DNA from: Pseudomonas viridiflava
GTDB taxonomy: Bacteria; Pseudomonadota; Gammaproteobacteria; Pseudomonadales; Pseudomonadaceae
Length of the DNA stretch: 64,000 bases
NCBI RefSeq assembly: GCF_900601905.1
Contig: NZ_UWFA01000505.1
Location: 124,001 to 188,000, forward strand
Direction: 5' to 3'
The notes under the pieces are model-generated. The model saw nothing but the letters and a program-made list of their open reading frames with translations, made no database searches and was not told the DNA's origin. This document shows, one piece after another, positions 6,980 through 50,554 of the stretch. The position numbers and the translations under genes were made by a program. How positions within the stretch are numbered: the first letter of the stretch is position 1; each line of letters opens with the position of its first letter.

Positions 6980-8614
6980 ATGAATCTGAGACATCTCAAT
7001 ATCGCCCCCCGGTCGTTGCTCTGCTTCGGTTTTTTCGCCGTACTGATCACTGCGCTGGGGCTTTTTTCCCTGGACCAGTCAGCAGGGTTGAAGGCGTCGC
7101 GAGAGACCCTGCAGGACAACGTTTTGCCGACCGTACAGACGATCGAACAGATCAAGACCGACCTGGTGACCATTCGCCTGGGCAACACGGGCCTGCGTGC
7201 CGCGCAGAACGCTGAGGGCGCGAGCCGCCAACTGGAGCGAATCAGCCAGGCCCGCAGCGGTCTGGAAACCGATGTCCGCAAGCTCAAACCGTTGCTGGTG
7301 ACTGATGCCGGTAAAACCGCGTTCAGCGCCATGGAGCGCAATCTGGTTGCCTATATGGCAGTGCATTCGCGCTTCCTCGATGCGGTGGCGCAAAAGCGTG
7401 AGGACGTCATCACGGCGCTGACGTTGCCCTCCGGCGAAATGACCGTGGCCGCTGACGTGCTGAGCAAAGACATCACCGAAGTATCGCGCCTTGCCAATCT
7501 GAAGATGGCCGAATCCGATGCCATCGCCGACAAGACCTACTCACAGTCGCGCAATGTAACCATCGCGGCCATCGTCGTCGCCCTGGCCGCGACCCTGGCA
7601 CTCGCGGCACTGTTCACCCGCAGTCTGGTGGCGCCCATCGCCAAAGCCCTGGCCGTTGCCCAGCAGATTGCGGCAAACGACCTGAGCAAACCCATTGAAG
7701 TGGACGCCAGAGATGAGCCCGGCCGTCTGCTCGAAGCGCTGTCCGTGATGCAGCAGAACCTGCGTCGCACCCTGGGCGAGCTGGGTGATTCATCGACTCA
7801 ACTGGCCTCGACTTCCGAAGAGCTCACCGCCGTAACCGAAGACTCCTTGCGTGGCGTGCAGCGCCAGAACGATGAAATCAATCAGGCTGCCACCGCCATC
7901 AATCAGATGACTGCCGCCGTTGAAGAAGTCGCACGCAATGCCTCGCTGGCTTCAAGCGCAGCCCGGGACTCCAGCCAGTCGGCGGAAAATGGCCGTCAGC
8001 GTGTGGGTGAAACCGTCAGCGTGATCAACGAGCTGCATGAGGCGGTGGGCGTGACGGCGATCGAGATCGATGGCCTGGCCGTGCAGGTGCAAGGCATCAG
8101 CGGCGTACTGGACGTGATCCGCGGCATCGCTGATCAGACCAACCTGCTGGCGCTCAACGCGGCTATCGAAGCAGCCCGTGCCGGTGAGGCCGGTCGTGGT
8201 TTTGCAGTAGTCGCCGACGAAGTCCGGGCGCTGGCCCATCGCACCCAGCAGTCGACGGCGGAAATCGAAAAAATGATCGCCTCGATTCAGAGCGGTGCTG
8301 GCAAGGCGGTCAGCGCCATGGGCCACAGCAGCGAACGCGCGCGGGCCAGCCTGGAGGTGGCAGAAGCGGCCGGCCAGGCCCTGGTGGAAATCACTGCCGC
8401 CATTGTGCAGATCAATGAACGCAACATGAGCATCGCCTCGGCCACTGAAGAACAGGCGCAAGTCGCCCGTGAGGTTGACCGCAACCTGACCAGTATCCGC
8501 GACCTGTCGTTGCAGACCTCAGCCGGCGCCAACCAGACCTCGGCCGCCAGCAGCGAACTGTCGCAACTGGCGGTCGGGCTCAATCAGTTGGCGATGCGGT
8601 TCCGGATGCAATAA
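6980..8614 (+). CDS. Methyl-accepting chemotaxis protein with four-helix-bundle sensor
   Basis: This 544-residue chemoreceptor has a membrane segment at about residues 12-30. A helical periplasmic sensor of the 4HB_MCP kind covers about 31-190. The second membrane segment is at about 190-212. A HAMP linker follows ([23 protein letters not shown]), then a long cytoplasmic coiled coil. The signalling hairpin tip is intact around [20 protein letters not shown] and [18 protein letters not shown]. The C-terminus lacks a CheR-tethering pentapeptide. It stands alone with no chemotaxis genes nearby, and its ligand is unknown. A 23-base piece of its 3' end is repeated in the REP just downstream. Confidence 0.92.
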
Positions 8615-42376: not shown

Positions 42377-43867
42377 CTACCTGCGCTTCTTGCCCCCTCC
42401 CAGCAACGACCCCATCAACCCTCGCACCAACTGCCGTCCCAGCTGATTGGCAGCCTGTCGCGCTGCGTTTTTCATGGCTTGCCCTGCTATGCCACCGAGA
42501 AATCCACCCGCCATGTCACTGAAGCTCTGCTGTTCTTCCTCGGTTTTTTTCGGCAAGTCGGCCGAATCCGGCGTGGCGACTTTGCGGGCAATCAGCATTT
42601 CGTACGCTGATTCACGATCGATCGGCTTGTCGTAGCGTCCAGCCAATGGCGAGCGTGCAATCAGGCTGGCGCGCTCGGCCTCGCTCAACGGCCCGATCCG
42701 CGATTGTGGCGGCGCAATCAGCACCTGCTGAACCATCGCCGGCGTGCCTTTGTCCTGCAAGGTACCCACCAACGCCTCGCCAATCCCCAGCTGGGTAAGC
42801 ACTTCCAGCGTATTGATGTCGGGATTCGGCCGGAAGCCATCAGCCACGGCCCGTAGCGATTTCTGCTCCTTGGCGGTAAACGCGCGCAGTCCGTGCTGAA
42901 TCCGCAGCCCGAGCTGGGCCAACACGTCATCAGGCAGGTCACCAGGAGACTGAGTGACGAAATACACTCCCACGCCCTTGGAGCGGATCAAGCGTACCAC
43001 CTGTTCGAGCCGTTCCTGCAGCGCCTTGGGCGTGTCCGCAAACAGCAAATGCGCTTCGTCGAAAAACAACGCCAGCAATGGCTTGTCAGCATCGCCCCGC
43101 TCCGGCAATTGCTCGAACAGCTCGGCGAGCAGCCACAGCAGGAAAGTCGCGTAGACCTTGGGCGCTTCGTGCACCAGACGGCTGGCATCGAGCAGGTGAA
43201 TACGGCCGCGTCCGTCGCTGGCCGGCTCAAGAAGGTCCTCCAGTTGCAGCGCTGGCTCACCGAACAAGGCTTCGGCGCCCTGCTGCTCAAGGATCGCCAG
43301 ACGCCGCTGCAGCGCCTGGCTGGAACCGGTGGTCATCAGCGAGCTGTCTTCGCCCAGCAACTGCGGGTTGTCACGCAGATGATTGAGCAAGGCCTTGAGG
43401 TCTTTGATGTCGAGCAATAGCAAACCTTCCCGGTCGGCGACCTTAAACGCGGCATACAGCGCGGCCTGCTGGCTGTCGGTCAACTCCAAGAGGCTGCCCA
43501 GCAGCAGGGGGCCCATTTCACTCAGGGTTGTACGCAATGGATGACCGGTCTTGCCTTGTATATCCCACAACGTCACGGGATAAGCCTGCGGCCTGTGATT
43601 GAGCCATGGCATGCCCGCAATGCGCTCGGCGATCTTGCCTTGCGGGTCGCCCGCCGCACCGAGGCCGCACAGATCACCTTTGATGTCCGCAGCGAACACG
43701 GCCACGCCTGCATCGCTGAACGCTTCTGCCAGACGCTGCAAGGTCACGGTTTTACCGGTGCCGGTCGCCCCCGCAACGAGCCCGTGCCGGTTACCCAGGC
43801 GCAGCGCTTGTGAAACGGCCAGTCCATCAGGACCGGAACCCAGAACGATAGTGTGCGAATCGGGCAT
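42377..43867 (-). CDS. HerA-like ATPase/helicase (DUF853, YjgR type)
   Basis: This 496-residue P-loop ATPase of the FtsK/HerA superfamily has Walker A GATGTGKT at 33-40 and Walker B in LLALFFDEAHLLF. An arginine-finger region IRSKGVGVYFVTQSPGDLPDDVLAQLGLRIQHGLRAFTAKEQK follows. The C-terminus is basic and glycine-rich (GSLLGGGKKRR). The length and layout match the DUF853 proteins such as E. coli YjgR (about 500), whose role is unknown. It lacks the N-terminal HAS barrel of true HerA and no NurA nuclease is adjacent, so a role in end resection is not supported here. Confidence 0.88.
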   Translation of the reverse strand: MPDSHTIVLGSGPDGLAVSQALRLGNRHGLVAGATGTGKTVTLQRLAEAFSDAGVAVFAADIKGDLCGLGAAGDPQGKIAERIAGMPWLNHRPQAYPVTLWDIQGKTGHPLRTTLSEMGPLLLGSLLELTDSQQAALYAAFKVADREGLLLLDIKDLKALLNHLRDNPQLLGEDSSLMTTGSSQALQRRLAILEQQGAEALFGEPALQLEDLLEPASDGRGRIHLLDASRLVHEAPKVYATFLLWLLAELFEQLPERGDADKPLLALFFDEAHLLFADTPKALQERLEQVVRLIRSKGVGVYFVTQSPGDLPDDVLAQLGLRIQHGLRAFTAKEQKSLRAVADGFRPNPDINTLEVLTQLGIGEALVGTLQDKGTPAMVQQVLIAPPQSRIGPLSEAERASLIARSPLAGRYDKPIDRESAYEMLIARKVATPDSADLPKKTEEEQQSFSDMAGGFLGGIAGQAMKNAARQAANQLGRQLVRGLMGSLLGGGKKRR

Positions 43868-44208
43868 TTCTTCACCTGTTGATTGCGTAGGCAGGGGTGC
43901 GATGCAACCCAGTATTACTCAGTTTGGACCGTGCCGAGAGGTGGCGTGGGTGTCTGAACCTCAGATTCGCGATAACCAGGCCGTCGGCTATTGCCAGAAC
44001 CCTCAGTACCCAGATCACTGTGCACCCGCCGCCGGTCCGATACGCGGCGATCCGCGCCGGGTTGCGAGCAGTCTTTGCTGCGCAATCATGGCTTGAACCG
44101 TCGTTTTGCACCCGCAAAGACTACTGCCCCGGGGCGGCTGATCCGGCGAACATCTATTCTAGGCAGAGGTCAACGTTAAGGAGTCGAGCCACTCAAGGAG
44201 TGTTCATT
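43868..44208. other. Divergent intergenic region with no recognised element
   Basis: These 341 bases separate the HerA-like gene from the glycosyltransferase operon. Apart from the ribosome site AAGGAG at 44195-44200 I find no clear promoter, repeat or gene. The in-frame extension of the glycosyltransferase frame back to 43897 lacks a ribosome site and does not resemble a glycosyltransferase N-terminus. Confidence 0.5.
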
Positions 44209-45321
44209 GTGCATATCGCCGACATGACCATGTTCTACGCCCCGGCCAGCGGCGGCGTGCGCACTTACCTCGACGCCAAGCATCGACGACTGGGCCTCTA
44301 CCCGGACGTTCGGCACAGCCTGCTGATCCCGGGCGCCAACCGCAGCCACACAGATGGCATCTACAAAGTTCCCGCCACGCCAGTGCCGTTTGGCAACGGC
44401 TATCGGTTTCCACTGCGCCTGGCACCCTGGCGCAACACATTGCGCGCTCTGCAGCCGGACCTGATCGAGGTCGGCGACCCTTACCTGACAGCCTGGGCGG
44501 CGCTCGATGCGCGACGCCATCTGGACGTTCCGGTCATTGGCTTCTATCACTCTGACTTGCCATTGCTGGTGAGCAATCGCGTTGGCAGCTGGCTGGGCAC
44601 TAACGTCGAAGCCTACATCCGAAAACTCTACGGCAACTTTGATCGTGTACTGGCCCCCAGTAGCATCATGGCCCACAAGCTGACCGGGCTCGGGGTCAGA
44701 AACGTCCACGTGCAGCCGCTGGGCGTTGACCTGATCACATTCACCCCTGCGGTGCGCGATGCCTGCCTCAGGACACAGCTGGGGCTGAGCCCGGATACCC
44801 GGCTGCTGATTTTTGCCGGGCGCGGCTCCCGGGAAAAGAACCTGCCGGTGCTGCTTGATTGCATGAAGCGGCTCGGCAGCGGGTTTCATCTGCTTTTGGT
44901 GGGCTCGCACATGCCAACTCAGGTTCCGGACAACGTCACGGTCATCGGGCACTTCTGCCCGGCAAGCGAACTCGCCAGGATGCTCGCCAGCGCCGACGCC
45001 CTGGTGCACGCAGGCGATCAGGAAACGTTCGGCCTGGTCGTCCTGGAAGCCATGGCCTGCGGGATTCCAGTTGTTGCGGTTGCGGCCGGAGCGTTCCGGG
45101 AAATCATCCCCCGGGAATGCGGCCTGCTGTGCGATCCAGGGAGCGCCCCGGCCATGGCGGACGCCGTGCATGAATTGTTCCGGCAAGCGCCAGCCGACAA
45201 AGGCCATCTGGCTCGGCGCTACGTGGAAAGCCGCTACTCATGGGACAGCGTGGTCGCCGGCCTGCTGGAGCATTATCGGGCGGTCCTGGGCCAGACGCTG
45301 CCGGTACGGGCCCATGCCTGA
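44209..45321 (+). CDS. GT4-type glycosyltransferase (GT-B fold)
   Basis: This 370-residue glycosyltransferase has an N-terminal Rossmann half beginning HIADMTMFYAPASGGVRTYL, the glycine-rich acceptor loop of GT4 enzymes. The donor-binding half contains LLIFAGRGSREKNLPVLLDCM, VIGHFCPASELARMLASADALVHAGDQETFGLVVLEAMACGIPVVAV and the EX7E-type glutamates in HAGDQETFGLVVLE. The start is GTG at 44209 with AAGGAG eight bases upstream. The last eight bases overlap a DUF2334 deacetylase and a flippase-like gene follows. The enzyme resembles lipid mannosyltransferases, so the product may be a glycolipid. Confidence 0.85.
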   Translation: MHIADMTMFYAPASGGVRTYLDAKHRRLGLYPDVRHSLLIPGANRSHTDGIYKVPATPVPFGNGYRFPLRLAPWRNTLRALQPDLIEVGDPYLTAWAALDARRHLDVPVIGFYHSDLPLLVSNRVGSWLGTNVEAYIRKLYGNFDRVLAPSSIMAHKLTGLGVRNVHVQPLGVDLITFTPAVRDACLRTQLGLSPDTRLLIFAGRGSREKNLPVLLDCMKRLGSGFHLLLVGSHMPTQVPDNVTVIGHFCPASELARMLASADALVHAGDQETFGLVVLEAMACGIPVVAVAAGAFREIIPRECGLLCDPGSAPAMADAVHELFRQAPADKGHLARRYVESRYSWDSVVAGLLEHYRAVLGQTLPVRAHA

Positions 45322-46093
45322 ATCCCTGACACCACCGCCCGGCGTATTGCTGGTATTGCACGACGTCGCCCCGCAGACTCTGCCGGACTATCAAAACTTC
45401 GTCGCGCAAGTAGACGCCCTGGGGCAGATTCCCATAACGTGGCTGGTCGTACCGAACTTCCACCGCTGTAACGACGTCGAAGACAACGCGCCATTTCAGC
45501 GCCATATGCAAGAGCGCCTCTGTCGTGGCGACGAATTGGCGCTGCATGGCTACTTCCATTGCGATGACGGGCCCAGGCCACGCACACCAAGGGATTACTT
45601 CATGCGCCGCGTTTACACGTGGGAAGGTGAGTTTTATTCACTGACCACCTCCCAGGCATTGACCCGACTGCACGCAGGCCTCGAGCTGTTTCGGCGGATG
45701 GCCTGGCCGCTCAAGGGTTTTGTAGCGCCTGCCTGGCTGATGAGCGAAGGCACTCGTCAGGCACTGCGCCAGTTACCCTTGACCTACACCAGTGACGCCC
45801 GGCGTCTGTATGAGCTTCCGGACTTTTCCCCCGTCGATGCGCCAGGCATTGTCTGGAGCGCGCGCAGCCCGTTGCGGCGCGGGGTATCTAAATGGCTAAG
45901 CGACTATCGCGAAGCTCGACTCCGTCACGCGCCGACGATCCGCCTCGGCCTGCACCCTGTGGATATGCGTCATGAATTCTCCCGCAACTACTGGCTTGAA
46001 ACCTTGCGTCGCCTGATGGAAAACGGCCGGGTGCCGATGACCAAATCCCAGTGGCTCGCCCACCAGAGCACTCTCGGGCGGACCCAGGCATGA
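45314..46093 (+). CDS. DUF2334 polysaccharide-deacetylase-like protein
   Basis: This 259-residue protein belongs to the carbohydrate esterase 4-like DUF2334 family. The NodB-type metal aspartate sits in LLVLHDVAPQTLPDY. The histidine motif appears as DELALHGYFHCDDGP. GFVAPAWLMSEGTRQAL and LGLHPVDMRHEFSRNYW carry the later conserved residues. No signal peptide is present, so it likely acts on a cytoplasmic sugar-lipid intermediate. It overlaps the glycosyltransferase upstream and the flippase-like gene downstream (ATGA), a sign of tight coupling. It probably removes an acetyl group from the sugar added by the partner enzyme. Confidence 0.8.
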   Translation: MPESLTPPPGVLLVLHDVAPQTLPDYQNFVAQVDALGQIPITWLVVPNFHRCNDVEDNAPFQRHMQERLCRGDELALHGYFHCDDGPRPRTPRDYFMRRVYTWEGEFYSLTTSQALTRLHAGLELFRRMAWPLKGFVAPAWLMSEGTRQALRQLPLTYTSDARRLYELPDFSPVDAPGIVWSARSPLRRGVSKWLSDYREARLRHAPTIRLGLHPVDMRHEFSRNYWLETLRRLMENGRVPMTKSQWLAHQSTLGRTQA

Positions 46094-47085
46094 AGCGCAT
46101 TGCCTGGCTGGCGGTGGGTTTACTGGCCGCCATATTGATCCCGTTGCTGTTGGGCGGCGGCGATATTTTCCAGCGCTTGCGCAGCTTCCCCTTCCCGCTG
46201 TTGATGGCGATGTTCGGCATGATCATCCTGTGCTGGGGTCTGAACACGTTGCGTATGCGGCTATTGCTCGGCGACAGCGCGCGGAACCTGAGCATCAAGC
46301 GAAGCCTGGGCCTGATCATGGCCAGCGAGTTCGCGTACTGCGCCACGCCCGGGGGAAGCGGTGGGCCGTTGACACTCATGGCCGTGCTTTCGCGCAACGG
46401 AGTGGGTGCGGCCAAGAGCAGCGCCGTGTTTGCCACCGACCAACTCAGCGACCTCCTGTTTTTCCTGTTGGCGCTGGTGGGCATCATGTTCTATGCGCTT
46501 TTCAACCACCTCAGTGAACGGATGGAATGGCTGCTGGGCTTCAGCGCGGTGCTCGTGGTCGGCAGCCTATTGCTGTTTGTCGGCTTCGCCCGCTTTCACC
46601 GCCAGGTCATCAAATTCAACGGCCGACTGCTCAAGCGATTCAACACCAAACGCCTCACCCGCCGCCGCTGGGCGCGCAAGCTGCTGCATTTTCGTGATGC
46701 GCTGGCGCAGACCTGGAAAATGCCTCGCCAGAGATTGCTCGCGGTCTTCATTCTGACCTGCGTGCACTGGGGGCTGCGTTACAGCATCCTGTATCTGGCG
46801 CTGCTCGGGCTCGGCGTGAATGTGCAATGGGCCTGGACGTTTCTGATCCAGATGCTGTCGCTGACGGCGGGGCAGTTCAGCTTGTTGCCAGGCGGCGCCG
46901 GGACTGCGGAGCTGACCTCGGCGGCTCTGTTGGCGCCCATGGTGGGCAAATCAACGGCGGCGGCAGCCATTCTGATCTGGCGTACGGTGACGTACTACTT
47001 CTACCTGGTGGTGGGCGGACCGATCTTCCTGCTGATGGTCGGGCGACCGCTGCTGAACCGGCTGATGCGCTTCAACCAGGCTTGA
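46090..47085 (+). CDS. Flippase-like membrane protein (LPG synthase TM / YbhN / AglD family)
   Basis: This 331-residue protein has about eight membrane segments. The family signatures are FAYCATPGGSGGPLTLMAVLSRNGVGAAKSSAVFATDQLSDLLFFLLAL in the middle and LTAGQFSLLPGGAGTAELTSAALLAPM near the C-terminus. This is the membrane half of MprF-like lysyl-phosphatidylglycerol synthases, seen alone in proteins thought to flip lipids or glycolipids. It is the third gene of the overlapping glycosyltransferase operon, so it may move the modified lipid across the inner membrane. No aminoacyl-transferase domain is present. Confidence 0.85.
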   Translation: MKRIAWLAVGLLAAILIPLLLGGGDIFQRLRSFPFPLLMAMFGMIILCWGLNTLRMRLLLGDSARNLSIKRSLGLIMASEFAYCATPGGSGGPLTLMAVLSRNGVGAAKSSAVFATDQLSDLLFFLLALVGIMFYALFNHLSERMEWLLGFSAVLVVGSLLLFVGFARFHRQVIKFNGRLLKRFNTKRLTRRRWARKLLHFRDALAQTWKMPRQRLLAVFILTCVHWGLRYSILYLALLGLGVNVQWAWTFLIQMLSLTAGQFSLLPGGAGTAELTSAALLAPMVGKSTAAAAILIWRTVTYYFYLVVGGPIFLLMVGRPLLNRLMRFNQA

Positions 47086-47086
47086 A

Positions 47087-47272
47087 TCAACTGTCTGGCT
47101 CGTTCGCATCGAGCGGGGTGTCCTGAAGCTGGGTCTTGCGCCAAAGCTCGGCTGCGCCGTCAAAATCAGCCCCGTCCTCAGGGCTCAGGGCATCCGGATC
47201 ATAACGACTGAGACAGCCCTCACCCAGCGTGGGTGGGGCTGTCGACGTGGCCTTGTCGAGTGGGTCGCTCAT
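47087..47272 (-). CDS. Small acidic hypothetical protein
   Basis: This 61-residue acidic protein (MSDPLDKATSTAPPTLGEGCLSRYDPDALSPEDGADFDGAAELWRKTQLQDTPLDANEPDS) has no known domain. GGAGGA lies seven bases before the ATG at 47272 but directly against the ATG at 47278, so the shorter form is preferred. The strong ribosome site supports a real gene. It ends one base from the flippase-like gene on the other strand. Confidence 0.6.
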   Translation of the reverse strand: MSDPLDKATSTAPPTLGEGCLSRYDPDALSPEDGADFDGAAELWRKTQLQDTPLDANEPDS

Positions 47273-47380
47273 TTGCATTCCTCCGACACAGCGTAATTAC
47301 ACGGCGGCCACACTATTCGTGGACCAAATTGATCCGGGAAGCGGTGTTTCATGCGATGAAAATGCAGTGAATGTACCGGC

Positions 47381-47407
47381 CTCTTCCCGGATGAATCCGG
47401 TCCCACG
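47381..47407. repeat. Single REP arm
   Basis: CTCTTCCCGGATGAATCCGGTCCCACG is one diverged REP unit without a clear partner, between the small acidic protein and purU. Confidence 0.55.
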
Positions 47408-47436
47408 CGTCCGTGTTGGTGCTCAATCAAACCTGC

Positions 47437-48288
47437 TTAGTCAAACACTACCGTCTTGTTGTCGTGGACCAGTACGCGATCTTCCAGGTGGTAGCGCAAA
47501 CCGCGGGCCAGCACCATCTTTTCGACGTCGCGACCGAAACGCACCATGTTCTCGATGCTGTCACTGTGGCTGACGCGAACAACATCCTGCTCGATGATCG
47601 GGCCGGCATCCAGTTCTTCGGTTACATAGTGGCAAGTTGCGCCGATCAATTTGACGCCACGCAACGATGCCTGGTGATAAGGCTTGGCACCGACAAATGA
47701 TGGCAAGAAGCTATGATGTATATTGATCACCTGATGTGCATAGTCGCGGCACAACTGAGGCGGCAGAATTTGCATGTAACGCGCCAGAACGATCACGTCG
47801 GCCTGATGTTCTGCAATCAGACGGGACACTTCGGCAAAGGCCGGTTCTTTGTCTGCCGGGTTAACCGGTACGTGGTAATAAGGAATGTTGTGCCATTCGA
47901 CCATGCTGCGCAGGTCCTGGTGGTTGGAAATCACGCAGGCGATTTCACAATCCAGTTCATCGCTGTGCCAGCGGTGCAGCAAATCGGCCAGACAATGGGA
48001 TTCGCGGCTCGCCATCAGCACCACGCGCTTCTTCTGAGCGGAATCCGTGATGCGCCAGTCCATGGAGAACTCTTCGGCAATTGGCGCAAACGCCTCGCGG
48101 AAAGCTTCCAGTTCGAACGGCAGCGTGTCGGCACGCATCTCGTGACGCATGAAGAACCAGCCACTGAGGTTATCGGAGTGGTGGCTCGCCTCGGTGATCC
48201 AGCCGTTGTAGGACGCCAGAAAGTTACTGACTTTGGCAACGATGCCAACACGGTCCGGACAAGAAATCACCAGACGAAAAGTGCGCAT
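47437..48288 (-). CDS. purU: Formyltetrahydrofolate deformylase PurU
   Basis: This 283-residue enzyme hydrolyses 10-formyl-tetrahydrofolate to formate and tetrahydrofolate, which balances one-carbon units. An N-terminal ACT domain (about 1-85, RLVISCPDRVGIVAKVSNFLASYNGWITEASHH) precedes the formyl-transferase fold. Catalytic residues are in VINIHHSFLPSFVGAKPYHQA (Asn/His) and ELDAGPIIEQDVVRVSH (Asp). The ATG at 48288 has GGAG upstream. Pseudomonas often carries several purU-like genes. It diverges from mvaT. Confidence 0.93.
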   Translation of the reverse strand: MRTFRLVISCPDRVGIVAKVSNFLASYNGWITEASHHSDNLSGWFFMRHEMRADTLPFELEAFREAFAPIAEEFSMDWRITDSAQKKRVVLMASRESHCLADLLHRWHSDELDCEIACVISNHQDLRSMVEWHNIPYYHVPVNPADKEPAFAEVSRLIAEHQADVIVLARYMQILPPQLCRDYAHQVINIHHSFLPSFVGAKPYHQASLRGVKLIGATCHYVTEELDAGPIIEQDVVRVSHSDSIENMVRFGRDVEKMVLARGLRYHLEDRVLVHDNKTVVFD

Positions 48289-48635
48289 TAGGGAAACTCC
48301 AGAACTTCGCAAAGGCCGCCATTCTAGCGGCTGCGCGACAAAACTGCAGTATTCCTGTCGATCTGATCGAGCCTTGCCGTTACCAGCGTCGATTGCGCCT
48401 GACACGCGTCGGCCTTGCCGACCTGCAGAGCCTGCAACGTACTTGCTGGCACGGCCTAATTAGCAGTTATCTTTTTCGCCGGGGTAACACCGGGCTAGTT
48501 TGTCACCGGTGTAGGACACGCCGTATATTGCTAAATAATTCAAATAAAACTTTTCTTTAATGTTTACTTGCTCAATGCGCATGACTATTATTGCGTCACT
48601 GTCTACCTGTCACCCTCTCCACATAGGTGTACCTC
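48289..48635. other. AT-rich divergent region upstream of mvaT
   Basis: These 347 bases between purU and mvaT become strongly AT-rich from about 48520 to 48600 (TATATTGCTAAATAATTC and TTTTCTTTAATGTTTACTTG). That is the sort of DNA MvaT itself prefers, so autoregulation is plausible. No separate gene is supported. Confidence 0.55.
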
Positions 48636-49016
48636 ATGTCGCTGATCAACGAATACCGCGCTACAGAAGAAGCCATCAAAGAACTGCAAGCCCGTTTGAA
48701 GAACCTGTCCCAAGACGACAAACTGCAAACCGAGCTGGAATTCGAAGGCAAACTGCGCACCCTGATGGGCGAATATCAAAAGTCGCTGCGTGACATCATC
48801 GCGCTGCTCGACCCAGACGCTAAAGTTGGCAAGACCGCACGCGGCGCAGCAGTGAAAACTACTGGCACCAAGCGTGCACGCAAGGTCAAGCAATATAAAA
48901 ACCCGCACAACGGCGAAGTCATCGAAACCAAAGGTGGCAACCACAAGACTCTGAAAGAGTGGAAAGCCAAGTGGGGCGGTGATGAAGTTGAAGGCTGGGC
49001 AACCCTGCTGGGCTAA
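48636..49016 (+). CDS. mvaT: H-NS-family xenogeneic silencer MvaT
   Basis: This 126-residue nucleoid protein silences AT-rich, often foreign, genes in Pseudomonas. The N-terminal oligomerisation coiled coil is MSLINEYRATEEAIKELQARLKNLSQDDKLQTELEFEGKLRTLM. A basic linker (KRARKVKQYKNPHNGEVIETKGGNHKTLKEW) leads into the C-terminal DNA-binding AT-pincer domain with KGGNHKTLKEWKAKWG. I recall the P. aeruginosa MvaT sequence to be very similar over the whole length. The ATG at 48636 fits that protein; the upstream GTG would add only three residues. Confidence 0.95.
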   Translation: MSLINEYRATEEAIKELQARLKNLSQDDKLQTELEFEGKLRTLMGEYQKSLRDIIALLDPDAKVGKTARGAAVKTTGTKRARKVKQYKNPHNGEVIETKGGNHKTLKEWKAKWGGDEVEGWATLLG

Positions 49017-49123: not shown

Positions 49124-50554
49124 TCAAAGTCCCAGACGTTGACGCAACTGTTCGATATGGCCCTGCCACTGCGCCAATACGTTGAGCTGCTCAGGTGTGG
49201 CACTGATCGATAGTTCCACCAGCGACCGACTGAAACTCTGCAGCGTATTGGGGGCGCCCCATTGAGCGTCAGTCAGACGGTTCTGGCAAAAACTGCGCCA
49301 GCGCTGTTGTTCTTCTGGACTCAGGGTTTCAGCAAAGTTTCGTGCCCGATAACGGAACAATAACTCCGGCAACCGTGCGTCATCAAAAGGCCATGTAGTA
49401 TTGGCCAGTTGTTCAGGCTCGGCAGAACGTACTTGTTCACACAGCCTGCGGTCGCGATCACCGATAAATCCGTCATACAACTGCTGCTCGGGATCTTCAT
49501 TGGCGCCAAACTCATCGGGCGCATAAATGGTGTTGAGCTTTTCTTGCCAGATAGCCTGCCCTTCTCGCAATTGGCTGGCCCGTTGCTCGAACACGCCCAT
49601 GTCCAGCTCCAGGCGTTGTTGGTCTTCGCTGCGCAATACCTTCAATGGCGCCACCACCGGGCACCGATTTATATGCAAAAGTTTTAGCGGCACCGGCAGT
49701 TCGCCTTCGGCCAAGTCGTCACGGCGGGTATATAACCGGCGACGCAAAGTTTCCGGATCCTCATCCAGCAACGGCAGGTGATCCTGATGTAAGTCACAGA
49801 CGATCAGCGCATTACGATTCTGCGGATGCCAGGCCAGCGGCAGCACCACCCCTACATAATGCCGGGCCGCCGAGAAACGCCCGGAGATATGCACCAGAGG
49901 CTGCATCAGCTCTATCTGTTGCTGGACTTTCTGCTTGCTGCGCAACTGGAACAGATAATCGTAGAGCCTGGGCTGTTTCTCGCGGATCAGGCGCGCCAGG
50001 GCGATGGTTGCGCGCACATCGGAGAGTGCGTCGTGGGCCTGGCCATGATCGATGCCATTAGCGGCAGTCAGGCGCTCCAGCTTGAGAGTGACTCGCCCAT
50101 CTTCTTCAGGCCAGACGATGCCGTCCGGACGCAAGGCATAGGCGGCTCGGACCACGTCTATCAAGTCCCAGCGGCTGTTGCCGCCCTGCCACTCACGTGC
50201 ATAAGGGTCGAAAAAGTTTCGGTAGAGGCTGTAACGCGTCATCTCGTCATCGAAGCGCAGCGTGTTGTAACCCGCTCCGCAGGTACCCGGCGCCGCCAGT
50301 TCGGCGTGCACCCGGGTCATGAAATCGGCCTCGCACAGGCCCTGCTCGGCAAGGCGCGACGGCGTGATTCCGGTAATCATGCAAGCTGCCGGGTGCGGCA
50401 GGATGTCGTCGCTGGGCTGACAGTAGATATTGACCGGCGCGCCAATCTCGTTGAGTTCTGCGTCGGTACGGATCCCGGCCATCTGCAAGGCGCGGTCATT
50501 GCGGGGGTTGATCCCGGTGGTTTCGTAGTCGTACCAGAAAATGGTGGAAGTCAC
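49124..50554 (-). CDS. sbcB: Exodeoxyribonuclease I (SbcB)
   Basis: This 476-residue DnaQ-fold 3'-5' exonuclease degrades single-stranded DNA in recombination and mismatch repair. The exonuclease motifs are FWYDYETTGINPRNDRALQMAGIRTD (Asp9, Glu11), AGYNTLRFDDEMTRYSLYRNF and GQAHDALSDVRATIALARLI. The SH3-like and helical C-terminal domains follow. The length matches E. coli ExoI (475). It is monocistronic and diverges from the MoxR operon. Confidence 0.95.
   Translation of the reverse strand: MTSTIFWYDYETTGINPRNDRALQMAGIRTDAELNEIGAPVNIYCQPSDDILPHPAACMITGITPSRLAEQGLCEADFMTRVHAELAAPGTCGAGYNTLRFDDEMTRYSLYRNFFDPYAREWQGGNSRWDLIDVVRAAYALRPDGIVWPEEDGRVTLKLERLTAANGIDHGQAHDALSDVRATIALARLIREKQPRLYDYLFQLRSKQKVQQQIELMQPLVHISGRFSAARHYVGVVLPLAWHPQNRNALIVCDLHQDHLPLLDEDPETLRRRLYTRRDDLAEGELPVPLKLLHINRCPVVAPLKVLRSEDQQRLELDMGVFEQRASQLREGQAIWQEKLNTIYAPDEFGANEDPEQQLYDGFIGDRDRRLCEQVRSAEPEQLANTTWPFDDARLPELLFRYRARNFAETLSPEEQQRWRSFCQNRLTDAQWGAPNTLQSFSRSLVELSISATPEQLNVLAQWQGHIEQLRQRLGL

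Follow-up and report, generated by a model that had tools for sequence, protein, structure and literature searches.

A gpgSDF operon for glucosaminyl phosphatidylglycerol in Pseudomonas viridiflava, with a flippase-type gene that relatives keep without its partners

Glucosaminyl phosphatidylglycerol (GlcN-PG), a lipid known also from Bacillus megaterium, was first observed in the 1960s. Its genes received their names only in 2025, when Khan, Palmer and Guan (J Bacteriol 2025, PMC12713373; cited here and below from part of the article) reported that gpgSDF makes this lipid in Pseudomonas aeruginosa PA14. GpgS adds N-acetylglucosamine (GlcNAc) to phosphatidylglycerol (PG) and GpgD strips the acetyl group: a gpgD transposon mutant contains no GlcN-PG and accumulates GlcNAc-PG, with complementation bringing GlcN-PG back, a gpgS transposon mutant is without both lipids (gpgS complementation was not obtained) and Escherichia coli expressing gpgSDF makes both (PMC12713373). 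Here we describe three genes at positions 44209-47085 of a 64,000-nucleotide stretch of the Pseudomonas viridiflava genome (the window; contig NZ_UWFA01000505.1) that are very probably gpgSDF, encoding a GpgS–GpgD–GpgF route to GlcN-PG in which gpgS and gpgD form one unit and gpgF is separable, with a possible further role. The operon is already known, and the window holds a known system in another species; the fresh observation is the separability of the flippase gene, which relatives have repeatedly kept without gpgS–gpgD. Genomes with gpgF alone (F-only) or with gpgS and gpgD alone (S-D-only) are not described in the available part of PMC12713373.

The identity of the trio is carried by matches well over the cut-offs of three NCBIfam families: GpgS to NF053787 (N-acetylglucosaminyl phosphatidylglycerol synthase; 609.5 bits, cut-off 480), GpgD to NF053788 (GlcNAc-PG deacetylase; 403.7 bits, cut-off 280) and GpgF to NF053789 (glucosaminyl phosphatidylglycerol flippase; 515.5 bits, cut-off 320). 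Pfam finds GT4 domains in GpgS, DUF2334 in GpgD (93.8 bits, cut-off 26) and LPG_synthase_TM in GpgF (PF03706; 178.1 bits, cut-off 33.4). The genes are co-directional, overlap in the order S-D-F and lie at the chromosomal site that gpgSDF occupies in P. aeruginosa. These matches, together with the model of GpgD given below, bear out a preliminary description of the locus as a GT4 enzyme, a CE4-like deacetylase and a membrane protein of the MprF flippase type, encoded by genes overlapping by 8 and 4 bases. Because the gpgSDF pathway has been published, the same description's proposals of a new amino-sugar lipid and of an operon lacking a characterized example are superseded (PMC12713373, as above). 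Its suggested sequence of glycosylation, N-deacetylation and flipping agrees with the published work in the first two steps, and flipping by GpgF is still putative (PMC12713373). The features of the operon are as follows.

44195-44200, + strand: Shine-Dalgarno-like AAGGAG, 8 nucleotides (nt) before the gpgS GTG (putative, from the sequence)
44209-45321, + strand: gpgS, 370 amino acids (aa), GTG start; GT4 glycosyltransferase, predicted GlcNAc-phosphatidylglycerol synthase (NF053787, GT4 Pfam domains)
45314-45321, + strand: gpgS/gpgD overlap, 8 nt
45314-46093, + strand: gpgD, 259 aa, ATG start; DUF2334, predicted CE4-fold GlcNAc-PG N-deacetylase (NF053788)
46090-46093, + strand: gpgD/gpgF overlap, ATGA, 4 nt
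46090-47085, + strand: gpgF, 331 aa, ATG start; LPG_synthase_TM membrane protein, predicted GlcN-PG flippase (NF053789, PF03706)

The GpgS translation contains the stretch ETFGLVVLE, which we take to be an EX7E motif. Residues D17, H78, H82 and H214 of GpgD are invariant in 22/22 aligned sequences (22 of the 42 GpgD in hand) and presumably correspond to a putative D/H/H metal-binding set and a catalytic histidine; no signal peptide is apparent by eye. An AF2 model of GpgD (pLDDT 88, pTM 0.87) matches 7ax7, the CE4 domain of a xylanase, in Foldseek (E 4.8e-8; ArnD, E 4.0e-5) and aligns by VIA with 3qbu over 220 residues (Z 18.7, root mean squared deviation (rmsd) 3.0), and on this model GpgD is predicted to adopt the CE4 fold. 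By sequence, the best match of the GpgD profile among solved structures has E 0.3, and none related to GpgF was found at E 0.1.

We propose that GpgS would move GlcNAc, presumably from uridine diphosphate-GlcNAc, onto PG at the cytosolic face, that GpgD, metal-dependent by analogy, would deacetylate GlcNAc-PG to the zwitterionic GlcN-PG, and that GpgF, a free-standing MprF-type flippase domain, would carry GlcN-PG to the periplasmic leaflet and probably move at least one other lipid too. For the S and D steps there is experimental proof from P. aeruginosa and from E. coli, and they are assigned to the window organism by correspondence; the donor of the sugar, the place of the reactions and the flipping are proposed. 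GlcN-PG should reduce the net negative charge of the membrane, and its effect on cationic antimicrobials is called merely plausible in the part of PMC12713373 cited here. Some observations weigh against the assignment as a whole. The lipid evidence comes from P. aeruginosa and E. coli, the gpgSDF of the window organism being known from its genes alone. The P. aeruginosa gpgF mutant keeps making GlcN-PG, several-fold less, and flipping by GpgF was not shown (PMC12713373, in part). Moreover, 10 of 249 genomes of the window genus carry gpgS and gpgD without any gpgF over cut-off, so that either the pathway can do without GpgF or the lipid is flipped by another protein.

An orthologous locus is that of P. 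aeruginosa PA7 (NC_009656.1; represented also by G126, with an identical gpgF), in which S-D-F stand at the corresponding site and the proteins are 71% (GpgS), 61% (GpgD) and 61-62% (GpgF) identical to those of the window. Its gene lengths (1116/762/1002 nt for S/D/F) are the same as those given for PA14 in Table 1 of PMC12713373. Upstream in PA7 lies a HerA-like gene and, between it and gpgS, two chemoreceptor genes (Pfam MCPsignal) that are missing from the window; downstream come purU, mvaT and exodeoxyribonuclease I, as in the window, in which the flanks are the following.

42377-43867, − strand: HerA-like ATPase gene, bordering the gpg site on the left (PF05872, 716.9 bits)
47437-48288, − strand: purU, formyltetrahydrofolate deformylase, right border (TIGR00655, 362.5 bits, cut-off 285.95), syntenic in relatives
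48627-49016, + strand: mvaT (NF041860, 235.8 bits, cut-off 180)
49124-50554, − strand: exodeoxyribonuclease I (NF008746, 692 bits, cut-off 260), presumably sbcB

The HerA-like gene is the left neighbour in many of the relatives opened, either directly or across a chemoreceptor gene. A 63-aa open reading frame (ORF) at 47087-47278 (− strand), between gpgF and purU, has relatives at the same site in many genomes and no Pfam match. No sigma-70 consensus promoter was found over 43860-47450, an uninformative result (shuffled sequence gives a mean of 0.8). The overlaps recur in 41 trio loci of other genomes, and they are not chance. At the S/D junction the overlap is 8 nt in 31 of these loci and 17 nt in the other 10, a class that may reflect start choice, the start codons of the compared loci having been chosen by script. 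At the D/F junction it is 4 nt in 34/41, with overlaps of 13, 13 and 1 nt and gaps of 14, 63, 64 and 70 nt in the remaining seven.

The operon was mapped in samples of 148 genomes of the family, 293 of the order (partly the same genomes), 200 of the phylum and 249 of the window genus. Within the family, 39 genomes have GpgS over cut-off, the same 39 have GpgD and 54 have GpgF; S, D and F stand side by side by coordinates in all 39, and the 15 genomes with F and without S and D all belong to one genus (coded g9; 17 genomes, 15 F-only and two with the trio). GpgD is over cut-off in 14/293 genomes of the order sample, nine of which belong to two other families, and in the phylum sample the count is 4/200, all inside the order. 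The operon is thereby mapped to part of the Pseudomonadaceae and to two further families of its order. Gene order is S-D-F in 41/41 GpgD loci opened in detail, including nine outside the family. Far from being rarely found together, a doubt that the preliminary description had allowed for, gpgD and gpgF occur jointly in 133 of the 153 genus genomes that have at least one of them; nine have F only, 11 have D only and 96 have neither, these being counts of co-presence per genome and not of adjacency. GpgS, checked in the F-only and D-only genomes, is over cut-off in none of the nine F-only genomes and present in all 11 D-only genomes. In G820, one of the D-only genomes, the contig stops at this point, and leaving it out of those that lack F gives the 10 with S-D and no F. 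G634, with GpgD as two fragments below cut-off, is counted as neither. Genes of relatives were called by codon-usage scoring; gpgD in one locus (L201) was missed by the caller and shown by profile and tblastn. Of 12 gene-less genus genomes in the family sample, six were opened: four (L110-L113) are cleanly empty between the HerA-like or chemoreceptor-like gene and purU, and two (L114, L115) have a small other gene in place of gpgSDF.

GpgF is thus not an obligatory partner of GpgS–GpgD, as the partial operons on both sides attest. In 15/15 F-only genomes of the g9 clade, hpt, upp, an NCS2 permease gene and gpgF stand in that order and are followed by purU, which in most adjoins gpgF save for one or two small genes (gene labels follow L047; the permease, labelled uraA, scores below the uracil-permease cut-off). 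A scan of named genomes, of which the best 80 of 351 relatives comprise 61 with the trio and 19 F-only (not a frequency, and overlapping the unnamed samples), includes as F-only g9 genomes among the matches listed P. nitroreducens, P. pseudonitroreducens, P. nicosulfuronedens, P. citronellolis, P. delhiensis, P. jinjuensis, P. panipatensis, P. schmalbachii and three more species. Also F-only among those listed are P. maioricensis, Pseudomonas sp. ICMP 561, P. viridiflava p8.G8 and P. folii, whose GpgF proteins are 90-91% identical to that of the window and at whose loci similarity to the window restarts exactly at the gpgF start codon, 46090. These four, with G631, are the nearest rows to the window GpgF in the GpgF tree, and by this measure the window organism probably lies close to the P. 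viridiflava/P. syringae group. A wider GpgF tree, built by a quick method from 95 of 130 distinct rows (trio rows thinned, 31 F-only, 14 duplicates removed, and L211 and L214 left out for an in-frame stop in gpgF), needs at least five state changes, of which its starred branches force four. In the S-D-only operons (L199-L208), gpgS–gpgD are intact and gpgF is gone from the same site.

The conservation of the lone gpgF bears on its role. The median ratio of nonsynonymous to synonymous substitution (dN/dS; rough here, owing to GC-rich codon bias) is 0.048 for syringae-like F-only GpgF (10 pairs) and 0.097 for trio GpgF (1565 of 1596 pairs). Among the 15 g9 genomes it is 0.189, compared with 0.024-0.185 for six neighbouring genes, such that g9 GpgF is constrained but is the loosest of the seven genes compared; with four more species, the g9 F-only median is 0.337 (range 0.036-0.625; 171 pairs, 19 rows). 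Because gpgF is kept in place under constraint in F-only lineages, GpgF probably has work besides GlcN-PG, and we lean towards its being a flippase of PG-class lipids that serves a purpose of its own apart from GlcN-PG. The simplest account would be that GlcN-PG is not the sole cargo of GpgF and can arrive without GpgF or through another protein. Since F-only genomes receive the name 'GlcN-PG flippase' though without the known route to GlcN-PG, that name is probably too narrow. If this is right, the pathway is a two-enzyme cassette joined to a more general flippase, and F-only species are natural strains in which to find the other substrate of GpgF. The separability of the gene makes the cargo of GpgF open to experiment, a point that the original study could not demonstrate.

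A role as stand-in for a missing MprF was rejected, MprF being over cut-off in 43/45 genomes (24 F-only, 10 S-D-only and 11 trio; absent in G044). The other exception, G739, which has gpgS–gpgD and no gpgF, appears to carry mprF in two pieces (contig 1, 6338647-6341156).

The foremost alternative, that GpgF is dedicated to GlcN-PG and the F-only copies are remnants in slow decay, has several observations in its favour: gpgF carries an in-frame stop in two of the nine F-only genus genomes (G633, G672), the g9 value is the highest of the seven genes and the enlarged g9 median exceeds that of trio genes. Yet the g9 F-only GpgF proteins form a single well-supported clade (15 rows, 100/99; sister to PA7 GpgF and nested within trio rows) in which 15/15 genes are full-length open frames, their dN/dS is on a par with that of an intact neighbour at the same locus (0.185) and the syringae-like F-only genes are tightly constrained. 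We regard such decay as possible but less likely than a GpgF with a function of its own.

The partial operons also bear marks of how they arose. In P. koreensis B1M1-15 (L178), the start of gpgS (VHIAEIT) leads without a change of frame into a short ORF whose end is the gpgF ATGA overlap, which reads as an internal deletion of S and D. In one S-D-only locus (L200, from G705; 7170-7295), intact gpgD is followed directly by a frame holding the gpgF C terminus only. At four syringae-like F-only loci, 25-26 of 60 nt match the gpgD tail in register, with 18-45 of 5000 shuffles as high and an intact gpgD (L183) giving 28; the four loci are related, and the register was picked after inspection, which makes these shuffle counts optimistic. 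No gpgD-like tail was seen by eye in the F-only loci L210, L212, L216 and L217. The deletion scars argue that both kinds of partial operon arose by loss, at least at these loci. That the F-only lineages instead never had S-D, the pair having joined an older lone gpgF, is a doubtful reading. It draws on state-change counts that give no direction on the tree, on a clade in which the window is the one trio row beside five F-only rows and on the whole spacer before gpgF in the four F-only loci, which in local alignment to GpgD scores not above shuffles. Against it stand the gpgS-start scar and the gpgD-tail remnants, the clear converse loss in L200 and the nesting of F-only clades inside trio rows. 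Loss from a complete gpgSDF is the history that we prefer.

It is very improbable that the trio modifies another lipid here, such as a diacylglycerol glycolipid of the kind made by HexSDF or Agt1/Agt2: the acceptor of a GT4 enzyme is unreadable from sequence and HexSDF has the same glycosyltransferase, deacetylase and flippase plan (PMC10128005, cited from part of the article), but all three proteins are far above equivalog cut-offs and the chromosomal site and overlaps are common to P. aeruginosa.

DUF2334 proteins also occur in other settings. One genome (G333, contig 21; L052, 6754-9908) has a further DUF2334 protein, which scores far under the cut-off for GpgD, beside a GT4 protein and a Sulfotransfer_3 protein and with no GpgF match, possibly another amino-sugar lipid cassette; proteins scoring like it occur in several families of the order, this locus alone having been opened. 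In a genome of another family of the phylum (G270; L050, 1171-9287), a TonB receptor, a DUF2334 protein, a GT4, a 311-aa protein (no Pfam match, with a membrane-bound look), a second GT4 (30% identical to GpgS) and LptF/LptG stand in a row whose product could be a lipid-linked glycan with glucosamine. Our literature search found no paper combining DUF2334 with a glycosyltransferase.

Several known systems resemble the trio in part. ArnD removes an N-formyl group, at the cytosolic face, from an amino sugar carried on a lipid; it shares the CE4 fold with GpgD (VIA Z 17.2, rmsd 3.2, 218 aligned; 13% identity) and differs in its lipid and in its acyl group. The glucolipid genes Agt1/Agt2 of P. aeruginosa, at first a candidate counterpart, were set aside in favour of the gpg families named by NCBIfam, and papers give them different locus tags (PA3218 and PA0842, as opposed to PA4311-PA4313 for gpgSDF). 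MprF has a flippase-domain family in common with GpgF, an analogy drawn by the gpg authors (PMC12713373), but fuses it to an aminoacyl-PG synthase domain, whereas GpgF has PF03706 only and lacks the synthase domain (NF033480, 24.4 bits, cut-off 600). HexSDF of Clostridioides difficile follows the same plan, a lipid glycosyltransferase, a deacetylase and an MprF-like flippase yielding an amino-sugar lipid. In the part of PMC10128005 cited here, HexS is annotated as a monogalactosyldiacylglycerol synthase, and HexD, annotated as a polysaccharide deacetylase, is placed on the outer side in the model, the inner side being considered too; the acceptor of the system is a hexosyl-diradylglycerol. GpgS has GT4-type Pfam matches only and is set apart from HexS by this description. 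The known system nearest to the trio is gpgSDF of P. aeruginosa PA14/PAO1, which shares gene order, families and chromosomal site with the window trio and differs in belonging to another species, one in which the lipid itself, and not the genes alone, has been seen.

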